In this document: piece by piece, positions 48,086 to 51,966 of the stretch
Layout of the letters: each line of letters begins with the position of its first letter
How positions within the stretch are numbered: position 1 is the stretch's first letter
Source of the DNA: an uncultured Fidelibacterota bacterium
GTDB taxonomy: Bacteria; Fidelibacterota; Marinisomatia; Marinisomatales; Marinisomataceae
Direction of reading: 5' to 3'
Length of the DNA stretch: 64,000 bases
NCBI GenBank assembly: GCA_902526795.1
Contig: CABZMF010000002.1
Location: forward strand, 97,199 to 161,198
Translations under genes and position numbers: made by a program
Notes under the pieces: model-generated
The model's input: only the letters and a program-made list of their open reading frames with translations
Told to the model about the DNA's origin: nothing
Database searches by the model: none

Positions 48086-48803
48086 TTTTTCTTTTATTGA
48101 TAAAAAAAATATCAAGAATTCAAATTTCTTGCTTGATGAGAGTGAATCACACCATGTTGCTTCTGTCCTAAGACTAAAAGAAAATTCTTATTTGACTTTA
48201 ACAGATGGAAAGGGTTCAGTTTATTACGCAATCATTAATGAGATAAATAAAAAAAATGTCAAAGGAAAAATTTTAAAAAAAGAAAATTTACTTTTTGATC
48301 AAAGTTATTATGTTCATCTAGCTATACCTTTAATAAAAAATAGTAGATTCAAAATAGCTTGTGAAAAATCTGTTGAACTTGGAATCAACGAATTAACCCC
48401 AATTAAATTTGATAAATCCGTAAAATCATCAATAAATCACAATAAAATTCTTCATTCAATTAGATCGGCATGCAAACAAAGTATGAGAGCTTATTTCCCA
48501 AAACTAAATAAACTCACTTCTTTTCAAGAATGGTATGATTCTGATGCAGTTAATATTGTTTGCATCATTGAATCAAAAGCAACCATTCTTGATAAATTAG
48601 ATGTAATTAAAGATGGGTTAAGCAAGAATAATAAAATTAATTTAATTGTAGGTCCTGAAGGCGATTTTTCTAGAAAAGAAAAAAAATTTATAAATGAAAA
48701 AAATTTCATTAAAGTTAACCTTGGAGGAACTATATTAAGGTCTGAAACAGCAATATTATCTTTGGTGTCAATCATTAATGAATTATTGATTAATAATGAC
48801 TAA
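48078..48803 (+). CDS. rsmE: 16S rRNA (uracil(1498)-N(3))-methyltransferase (GTG start)
   Basis: ESHHVASVLRLKENSYLTLTDGKG, LIVGPEGDFSRKE, VNLGGTILRSETAILSLVSII. Confidence 0.9.
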   Translation: MSNFSFIDKKNIKNSNFLLDESESHHVASVLRLKENSYLTLTDGKGSVYYAIINEINKKNVKGKILKKENLLFDQSYYVHLAIPLIKNSRFKIACEKSVELGINELTPIKFDKSVKSSINHNKILHSIRSACKQSMRAYFPKLNKLTSFQEWYDSDAVNIVCIIESKATILDKLDVIKDGLSKNNKINLIVGPEGDFSRKEKKFINEKNFIKVNLGGTILRSETAILSLVSIINELLINND

Positions 48804-49140
48804 AACAATATTTGAAAAAATTATTTTAAGAGAAATACCAGCAAATGTCCATTATGAAGATAATGAAATTATTGTAATTGATGATATAAATCCAACTGCT
48901 CCAATTCATTTGCTAATAATTCCAAAAAAGAAAATTGAAACATTAAATGATATTAAAGATGACGATTTAAAATTAGTTGGCAGGTTGTTTCAAATTGCAA
49001 AAAATATGGCTTCAAAGTTTGGAATAGATAAAACTGGGTACAGAACCATTTTTAATTGTAATAAAGATGGTGGGCAAACCGTATATCACATTCATTTACA
49101 TTTACTTGGTGGTCGATCTCTTGGATGGCCACCAGGGTAG
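48796..49140 (+). CDS. HIT-family hydrolase (HinT-like)
   Basis: APIHLLIIPKKKIETL, GQTVYHIHLHLLGGRSLGWPPG. Confidence 0.94.
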   Translation: MTKTIFEKIILREIPANVHYEDNEIIVIDDINPTAPIHLLIIPKKKIETLNDIKDDDLKLVGRLFQIAKNMASKFGIDKTGYRTIFNCNKDGGQTVYHIHLHLLGGRSLGWPPG

Positions 49141-49144
49141 AATA

Positions 49145-51250
49145 ATGAACATTACAAAATTAGAAATTTTTGGCTTCAAATCATTTGCAAAAAAAGAAAC
49201 AATTCTTTTCAACAAAGGGATTACTGGAATTGTTGGTCCAAATGGCTGTGGTAAAACAAATATCGTAGATGCCATAAGATGGGTTTTAGGTGAGCAAAAA
49301 ACCAAAAGATTAAGAAGTTCTAAAATGGAAGAGGTTATTTTTAATGGAGCTTCAAATGTAAAGCCTTTGGGTTTATGCGAAGTTTACCTAACAATTGAAA
49401 ATAATAAAGGACTTTTGCCTATTGAATATGACGAGGTGGAAATTGGTAGGAGACTTTATCGTTCAGGTGAAAGTGAATATTTCATTAATAGAAACAACTG
49501 TCGATTAAAAGATATTTCAAATCTATTCGTTGATACAGGTCTAACTTCAGATGCATACTCAGTTATTGAATTAAATATGATAGAGCAAATATTGTCAAAT
49601 AAAGATGATAGTAGAGTACAAATGTTTGAAGAGGCAGCTGGGGTAAATAAGTATAAAGCTAAAAGAAAATCAACCCTTAAAAAATTTGATTTAAATGCAA
49701 GGGATTTAGAAAGAATTGATGACATTATTTTAGAAATCCAAATTCAGGTAAAAGCTTTAGATTTACAACTTAAAAGATTTAAAAGACACAAAAAGCTAAC
49801 TGCTGAATTAAAATCCTTGGAGATAAATTTATCTTCAGCTAGAATAATTGATCTCGATAATATAATTAATCCACTCGAAGTCATGCTAAAAGAAAAAAAT
49901 AAACTATTAAAAAAAAATACCTCGAAAAAGGAAGTTAAAAGTGTTGAATTTGATAGGGCTAGAGACAATTATTTGAAAGAAAAAGAATCACTCTCAAAAA
50001 AGAAAGCTAAAGTTGATAAATTAACAGAAAAGCTACTTTCAGAAATCCAAGAAAAAAATAAAGAATCATCAAAAGGTGTTGGACTTCTAGAAGACGAGCT
50101 TCAAAAAAAAATAAATCAGTTAAATAAATTTGACAATGACTATATCAAAATTGTAACAGATAATGATGTCAATCATAGTTTATCAGATGAAAGCAGAAAA
50201 AAATTCAATGATAAAAATTATACTGTTATTGAAACAGATAAAAAATATGAAAAACTTAAAGCTAGTATTGAAGACTACAAAAATAAAATAGATATTTATA
50301 AGAGAGAGAAAGAATTTGATTTTTCAAAAATGGATGAGTCAATTAAAGATATTCAAGCCAAGATTAATTTAAATAATTTAGATCTTGAACATAAAGAAAA
50401 TGATGTCAATAAAGCATTTATTAAAATGGAATCTATTAGGGCAAAGATGGATTCGGATAAATTTAGCAAAGATGATCTTTTTTATGAGATAAAAGAAGCA
50501 GAAATGAAAATTGCAGAGTCCAAATTAAGAAAGTCTCAAATTATGCAAAATCTTGTTGAAAAATTTGGAAAGGATACAAGTATTATTTCAATTAAAGATT
50601 ACAGTATATCTGATATGGTTTACAGGATTGAAAAAATTAAAAGAAGTATTGAGTCAATTGGTCCTATAAATTGGGCTGTAAAAGATGAACATGAAGAAAA
50701 ATCGGATAGGTTAAAAAACTTATTAAATCAAAAATCAGATTTAATAGATGCAGAAAATAATTTAAAGGAAGCAATAAAAAAAATCGATACTGTTGCTCAA
50801 GATCATTTTTTAGAAACTTTTAATGAAGTGAGTGATAATTTTAAAAAAATGTTTACGGTGTTTTTTAATGGTGGTAAAGGTGCAATAAAGTTATCAGAGC
50901 CTAGTGATCCATTAAATTCTGATATAAATATTTTTGCTCAGCCTCCTGGGAAAAGAAATGACTCATTAAAAATGCTTTCTGCAGGGGAAAAATCATTAAC
51001 AGCAATTGCTTTATTATTTTCAATTTATCAATATAAACCAAGTCCATTTTGTATATTAGATGAAATAGATGCTCCTCTTGATGATATAAACATTAAAAAA
51101 TTTACTGATGTAATTAAAGACTACAGTAGAACCACTCAATTTATTATGGTAACACACAATAAATTAACGATGGAATCTGCAGATTGTATTTATGGAGTTA
51201 CTGCTGAAAAACAGGGAATTTCAAAGTTGATATCTATCGACTTTTCATAA
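49145..51250 (+). CDS. SMC-like ATPase, strongly shortened and apparently hingeless
   Basis: MNITKLEIFGFKSFAKKETILF, Walker A GPNGCGKTNIVDAIRWVLGEQ, signature LSAGEKSLTAIALLF, Walker B FCILDEIDAPLDD; only about 701 aa; ATG at 49145 preferred. Confidence 0.88.
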   Translation: MNITKLEIFGFKSFAKKETILFNKGITGIVGPNGCGKTNIVDAIRWVLGEQKTKRLRSSKMEEVIFNGASNVKPLGLCEVYLTIENNKGLLPIEYDEVEIGRRLYRSGESEYFINRNNCRLKDISNLFVDTGLTSDAYSVIELNMIEQILSNKDDSRVQMFEEAAGVNKYKAKRKSTLKKFDLNARDLERIDDIILEIQIQVKALDLQLKRFKRHKKLTAELKSLEINLSSARIIDLDNIINPLEVMLKEKNKLLKKNTSKKEVKSVEFDRARDNYLKEKESLSKKKAKVDKLTEKLLSEIQEKNKESSKGVGLLEDELQKKINQLNKFDNDYIKIVTDNDVNHSLSDESRKKFNDKNYTVIETDKKYEKLKASIEDYKNKIDIYKREKEFDFSKMDESIKDIQAKINLNNLDLEHKENDVNKAFIKMESIRAKMDSDKFSKDDLFYEIKEAEMKIAESKLRKSQIMQNLVEKFGKDTSIISIKDYSISDMVYRIEKIKRSIESIGPINWAVKDEHEEKSDRLKNLLNQKSDLIDAENNLKEAIKKIDTVAQDHFLETFNEVSDNFKKMFTVFFNGGKGAIKLSEPSDPLNSDINIFAQPPGKRNDSLKMLSAGEKSLTAIALLFSIYQYKPSPFCILDEIDAPLDDINIKKFTDVIKDYSRTTQFIMVTHNKLTMESADCIYGVTAEKQGISKLISIDFS

Positions 51251-51333: not shown

Positions 51334-51966
51334 ATGGCAACGAAAATTAGACTGAAAAGAATTGGTCGAAGAAATAGACCTTTTTATAGAATTATCATTA
51401 TCGATTCGAGAAAAAGAAGAGATGGATCTGCAATTGAGCAGGTTGGCTGGTACAATCCCATCGAAAGTAATAAAGAAAAAAATTATAATCTAAAAGAAGA
51501 TAAAATACTTGAATGGTTAAAGCTTGGCGCTCAAGTCACTGATCCTGTTAATAAGTTAATGAAAAGATCAGGTTTAGCTTACAGATGGCATCTAATGAAA
51601 CAAGGTTTAGCTGAAAAAGAGATTGATAAAGCTATTGAAAAATGGAAAAAAGAAAGAGATAAGGTAATCCAGGATAGAATTAAAGCAAATAAAGCTAAAA
51701 TAGAAAATGCAAAAGCTGAAAAAGCTGCTGCTAAAGTTTCAGAAGAAACTCCACCTGAAGAAGAAAAAGCTGAGGAAGCTCCGGTAGAAGAAGAAAAAGC
51801 TGAAGAAACTCCAGCTAAGGAAGAAAAAGCTGATGAAGCTCCAGCTGAGGAAGAAAAAGCTGATGAATCTCCAGCTGAAGAAGAAAAAGCTGAAGAAGCT
51901 CCAGCTGAGGAAGCTCTAGCTAAAGATGAAAAAGCTGAAGAAGCTCCAGCTGAAGAAGAAAAATAA
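51334..51966 (+). CDS. rpsP: 30S ribosomal protein S16 with long Ala/Glu/Lys repeat C-terminal extension
   Basis: KIRLKRIGRRNRPFYRIIIIDSRKRRDGSAIEQVGWYNP then acidic repeats. Confidence 0.95.
   Translation: MATKIRLKRIGRRNRPFYRIIIIDSRKRRDGSAIEQVGWYNPIESNKEKNYNLKEDKILEWLKLGAQVTDPVNKLMKRSGLAYRWHLMKQGLAEKEIDKAIEKWKKERDKVIQDRIKANKAKIENAKAEKAAAKVSEETPPEEEKAEEAPVEEEKAEETPAKEEKADEAPAEEEKADESPAEEEKAEEAPAEEALAKDEKAEEAPAEEEK
51756..51963 (+). repeat. Approximately 30-bp tandem repeats in the rpsP 3' end
   Basis: Period-10 aa unit EEKA[ED]E[ATS]P[AV][EK], about six imperfect copies. Confidence 0.88.

Follow-up and report, generated by a model that had tools for sequence, protein, structure and literature searches.

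The window analysed here, a 64,000-nucleotide stretch of DNA from a 0.91-Mb assembly that is 92.6% complete, carries an smc gene on the plus strand as a single unbroken open reading frame that begins with an ATG at 49145, runs for 701 codons, and closes with a stop codon that ends at 51250 (Table 1). Another in-frame ATG lies upstream at 49067, from which the frame would overlap the gene encoding the HIT-family protein, and translation is unlikely to start there. Pfam SMC_N spans residues 3-693 of the protein (2.2e-63) and the protein reaches 704.9 bits (cut-off 567.35) with the NCBIfam equivalog model for bacterial SMC, TIGR02168 "chromosome segregation protein SMC", the best stretch (residues 3-302) being collinear with model positions 2-301. 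A preliminary description of the locus had reported both SMC head halves intact in one uninterrupted frame and these matches agree with it. The Walker A, signature, Walker B and H-loop motifs are all present in the alignment and are the same as in full-length relatives. Neck identity to the full-length relatives is 52% on the N-terminal side and 47% on the C-terminal side, which would be consistent with ScpA binding and a role of the protein in chromosome segregation. At the Q-loop position (residues 138-150) the glutamine that is usual in SMC is replaced by E (YSVIELNMIEQIL) in the window protein; this E is common to Marinimicrobia SMCs, both hingeless and full-length (L121-L125), and L128 (Zixibacteria) keeps Q.

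Table 1. Features of the hingeless smc locus and of related loci (window coordinates unless a locus is named).
Feature	Position	Strand	Basis or remark
HIT-family protein gene, directly upstream of smc	48796..49140	+	part of conserved gene order
smc, hingeless, 701 aa plus stop	49145..51250	+	ORF; SMC_N and TIGR02168 matches
ATPase head, N-terminal half, residues 1-164	49145..49636	+	alignment: 68% identity to four full-length relatives
Walker A GPNGCGKT, residues 31-38	49235..49258	+	same sequence in short and full-length SMCs
N-terminal neck and arm, residues 165-339	49637..50161	+	AlphaFold2 helix 167-339; indel-free across 20 species
Apex in place of the hinge, residues 340-366	50162..50242	+	no cysteine in window species; low pLDDT
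C-terminal arm and neck, residues 367-540	50243..50764	+	AlphaFold2 helices 367-388, 399-474, 488-505, 512-573
ATPase head, C-terminal half, residues 541-701	50765..51247	+	61% identity to full-length relatives
ABC signature LSAGE, residues 611-615	50975..50989	+	alignment with full-length relatives
Walker B ILDEIDA, residues 637-643	51053..51073	+	alignment with full-length relatives
Apparent tip-exchange stretch in L110, about 110 bp	L110:7015-7135 (approximate)		
867-aa hingeless SMC (G175)	L204:4217-6817		central CxxC, residue 428 (CKFC)
867-aa hingeless SMC (G174)	L205:4149-6749		central CxxC, residue 428 (CKYC)

The Pfam profile search for the hinge domain (PF06470) gave no match in the window protein, and no CxxC occurs anywhere in the protein, which has 5 cysteines in total and none in the apex. 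In the AlphaFold2 monomer (mean pLDDT 75.7) the head is followed by one long helix, a low-confidence turn at residues 340-366, and the returning coil helices. No globular hinge is seen in this model; the AlphaFold2 models are of monomers only and their confidence at the tip is low. In the PDB the protein best matches 5xei, a P. yayanosii Smc head that includes coiled coil and joint, along with structures of Smc heads. Taken together, the profile matches, the predicted structure and the PDB matches indicate that the protein retains head, neck and joint and has lost the outer arm and the hinge.

The gene directly upstream is part of the order folK-dNK-omp-rsmE-hinT-smc that is common to the hingeless loci and to the full-length smc loci L121 and L122. 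A paralogue reading was rejected, as the gene order is that of full-length smc loci. The genes scpA and scpB, for which the preliminary description had suggested a search of the genome, are both present between trpS and an rluB-like gene (trpS-scpA-scpB-rluB-like), and the same arrangement is found in a full-length relative. Matches to ScpA and to ScpB were obtained in 21 species each among the 24 examined in the window's SAR406 family, the genomes that gave no ScpA or ScpB match being 56-78% complete, and ParB is found in 22 of the 24. Two parS-like sites with 1 and 2 mismatches are located 1.9 kb apart on one contig. The window also carries a ribosomal protein S16 gene (51334-51966) whose product has a long tail of acidic repeats (EEEKAEEAPA-like), and rimM is absent between rpsP and trmD.

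The close relatives of the window genome are named Candidatus Marinimicrobia or Neomarinimicrobiota (SAR406) and include many single-cell genomes. The 24 species of the window's family make up one genus, and 8 of the genomes are at least 90% complete. A short SMC is found in 23 of these species, the exception being G022, a 72% complete genome that gave no short SMC match; the smc of G001 (L120) is frame-broken, and the copies in G010 and G017 are truncated at contig ends. When counted from the conserved start, the complete short SMCs are 687-709 aa in length, a range that includes the about 701 aa given for the window protein in the preliminary description. PF06470 is present in 191 of the 245 genomes of the phylum and in none of the 24 species of this family, the window genome included. 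Uncut SMCs outside of the family are mostly about 1170-1200 aa, an 867-aa case aside. No second full-length SMC and no hinge encoded elsewhere were found in the 24 genomes; the next SMC_N match in the window genome (614 aa) was considered as a second SMC and rejected as it is an ABC transporter. The window protein groups with the Marinimicrobia SMCs in the tree. Whole-gene pairwise dN/dS values are 0.04-0.13 (about 0.05 in the more divergent pairs), with the arms also constrained.

As the hinge is absent across the lineage, the neighborhood is that of a full-length smc, ScpA, ScpB, ParB and parS-like sites are present, and dN/dS is low, the sequence evidence identifies the window protein as the orthologous smc, the sole condensin SMC of the cell, minus its hinge. 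The earlier label of an SMC-like ATPase understates the protein, as an orthologous smc with ScpA, ScpB and ParB retained is not an unplaced ATPase. Since PF06470 is missing from the protein, the genome and the family, the protein is classed as a hingeless SMC derivative that is an orthologue by descent and not as a canonical SMC.

Elsewhere, in family f16 (genera g40-g42 and g44), neither protein nor SMC_N searches found an SMC in genomes G159-G163, G165, G166 and G168, some of which are about 90% complete, and outright loss of SMC in these genomes is possible. RecF- and RecN-sized SMC_N matches are listed for the order and none for the window's genus among the matches listed, and the loss of both RecF and RecN in the genus is possible.

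The arms and the tip of the short SMCs were compared for insertions and deletions in 20 complete sequences. No indels are found in the first 339 residues or in the C-terminal arm, and length variation is limited to the tip (the stretch of residues 340-366) and the C-terminal tail. Seven relatives (L111-L114, L116, L117 and L119) have a tip with two CxxC motifs (residues 340 and 353), seven others (L104-L108, L115 and L120) have one CxxC (residue 340), and the tip has no CxxC in the window species, L099-L103, L109, L110 and L118; L115, L119 and L120, whose genes are cut or frame-broken, are included in these counts. Judged by their motifs, the two-CxxC tips are zinc-ribbon-like and the one-CxxC tips are zinc-hook-like, with zinc-ribbon Pfam families giving no more than weak matches to the two-CxxC tip (DZR, E 0.036 for L113). 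The claim in the preliminary description that there is no CxxC zinc hook thus holds for the window species and some relatives but not for those with CxxC tips, which make it a local state and leave tip dimerisation possible.

With the tip left out of tree building, the tree requires five or more changes of tip type, and the cysteine-free tips are nested among the cysteine-bearing ones. The deepest branch (L114 and L119) is of the two-CxxC type, and zinc at the tip may therefore be ancestral in the family, which is a reading and not a reconstruction. In L110 the arms group with the two-CxxC species while the ~110 bp of DNA around the tip is nearer to the cysteine-free species, a mismatch that points to recombination at the tip, by which L110 apparently acquired its tip type. 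In three pairs whose tips bear cysteines, the apex shows strong purifying selection (dN/dS 0.014-0.028). The conservation of the coil flanking the apex is 0.78 versus 0.61 in the remaining arms, and 5 of 250 circular shifts are as high.

The hinge is regarded as essential for SMC function, and it is debated whether the hinge does more than dimerise. The explanation that we favor, and consider reasonably probable, is that the protein serves in the sole SMC condensin of the cell (SMC-ScpAB) as a two-armed ATPase held at or near its tip. The ancestor of the window's SAR406 family would have lost the hinge together with the outer half of each arm, leaving the head, neck, joint, about 170-185 arm residues per side, and a short closing turn. 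ATP would engage the two SMC heads, ScpA-ScpB would bridge them, and the two arms would be joined at the tip or close to it. Zinc would make this connection in many relatives, via the CxxC pairs, and in the window species a zinc-free tip contact would be made by the conserved last ~20-30 coil residues flanking the turn. ParB would be the likely loader of SMC-ScpAB. Zinc binding, tip dimerisation, loading by ParB and a function in segregation are inferred; the explanation is preferred on account of orthology, the lineage-wide loss of the hinge, the partners and ATPase motifs that are kept, low dN/dS, the CxxC types and conservation of the tip, and laboratory precedents. When the hinge of B. subtilis Smc was replaced by the Rad50 zinc hook normal growth was observed in rich medium (PMC5344682), and the MukB hinge is able to replace the hook in Rad50 (PMC6969161). 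Against it stands the cysteine-free tip of the window protein. As the function of B. subtilis Smc is abolished when hinge dimerisation is lost (PMC5344682), an SMC whose tip has no means of dimerising would be expected not to work.

The main rival to the tip-joined model proposes that there is no tip dimerisation in the window species, such that head-plus-rod monomers would be joined by ATP head engagement and ScpA-ScpB only, forming an open clamp and not a two-point ring. A short, variable, low-confidence turn that has no cysteine would fit such a clamp, as would the repeated shifts of tip type within the family and the nesting of cysteine-free tips among cysteine-bearing ones. However, the coil adjoining the turn is conserved above the remaining arms, and a single cysteine-free tip type turns up in separate branches, with one copy apparently gained via recombination, which suggests a selected module and not decay. 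We consider the clamp unlikely, although it deserves to be taken seriously.

It is far less probable that the protein no longer acts in chromosome segregation and is instead a repair ATPase of the Rad50/SbcC or RecN kind. A hinge-free head-plus-coil with CxxC motifs in its relatives does look like Rad50, and the want of RecN-like SMC_N matches for the window's family noted above would leave room for such a role. However, ScpA, ScpB and ParB are retained, no SbcD (Mre11) match above the cut-off was found in any of 41 genomes, and structural comparison places the protein nearest to the Smc head with joint and to Smc heads. TIGR02168 is above its cut-off while the Rad50 profile PRK03918 (47.5 bits versus a cut-off of 700) and the RecN profile (35.6 bits versus 407.85) are far below theirs, which does not support the RecN/SbcC-like paralogue named in the preliminary description. 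An assembly deletion, which it had also raised, or a frame error is hardly credible and was rejected, as ~20 further species share the short SMC in independent single-cell and metagenome assemblies and the gene is one open frame with low dN/dS; nothing was found in its favor.

The window protein can be compared with several known systems. It shares its heads, motifs, neck, gene neighborhood and ScpA/ScpB/ParB partner genes with canonical bacterial SMC (TIGR02168, SMC-ScpAB) but has no hinge, falls short of its near full-length relatives by ~470 residues, and has a new short tip. An oceanic hinge-less SMC that also has no CxxC was reported in 2025 from marine Actinobacteria (PMC12153180), and the existence of hinge-less SMCs as such is therefore not new, which qualifies the suggestion of new biology in the preliminary description. 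In both cases no second SMC was found. The actinobacterial protein, compared here by description only, was drawn from a gene catalogue and assigned to Actinomycetes; the main text of that report makes no mention of ScpA, SAR406 or Marinimicrobia, and zinc-tipped relatives are not described in it. The engineered B. subtilis Smc (PMC5344682) resembles the SAR406 family in having a zinc tip for a hinge, shortened arms, and ScpAB as a partner, but is a laboratory construct with functional short arms of 253-267 aa, whereas the natural arms of ~170-185 aa are closer to 163 aa, the minor natural mode given in that study. Rad50/SbcC has CxxC at the arm tip like the relatives of the window protein (not the window protein itself) and differs as the SAR406 proteins have SMC heads by profile, ScpA/ScpB are encoded, and SbcD is not above the cut-off. 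The archaeal ASRPs (coalescin ClsN, Sph; PMC9389158) are short SMC-related ATPases with a zinc hook, as in those relatives, but form a separate family, the ASRP model giving 68.9 bits on the window protein versus a cut-off of 300.

A search of the open-access literature turned up no earlier account of SAR406 bacteria losing the hinge, of an ScpAB-type SMC with a natural zinc tip, or of exchange of the tip. As far as that literature shows, what is new is the loss of the hinge in SAR406, the ScpAB and ParB retained with it, and the natural bacterial SMCs with zinc-motif tips, a parallel in nature to the replacement of the hinge by a zinc hook in the laboratory (PMC5344682). The family provides a natural series of two-CxxC, one-CxxC and cysteine-free tips with arm length otherwise constant and ScpAB and ParB kept, and with such a series one can test what an SMC motor requires at the distal end of its arms and how far the arms can be shortened.

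A second hingeless SMC of 867 aa with one central CxxC is found in G174 and G175, which belong to another family of the same class. It has no hinge match and scores 722.3 bits with TIGR02168. In a tree of head sequences it groups with the full-length Marinimicrobia SMCs L125, L126 and L140 (support 90/90) and not with the SMCs of the window's family. A tree in which the 867-aa and ~700-aa proteins share a single origin is worse by 15.9 in lnL (p-AU 0.067); such an origin is disfavored, though not formally rejected, and the 867-aa lineage is probably a second, independent hinge loss. A wider reading, offered tentatively, is that SAR406 has swapped the condensin SMC hinge for a natural zinc tip at least twice, with arms ~90 residues apart (CxxC at 340 versus 428), and that the window branch has also dropped the zinc, which would leave it with no recognisable dimerisation domain and make the tips interchangeable cassettes. 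The arms of the 867-aa protein are longer than those of the one-CxxC type of the window's family by 88 (N-terminal) and 92 (C-terminal) residues. In B. subtilis, Smc viability rises and falls periodically as the arm length changes, one period being 91 aa (PMC5344682), to which this difference, seen in two lineages only, is a suggestive match.
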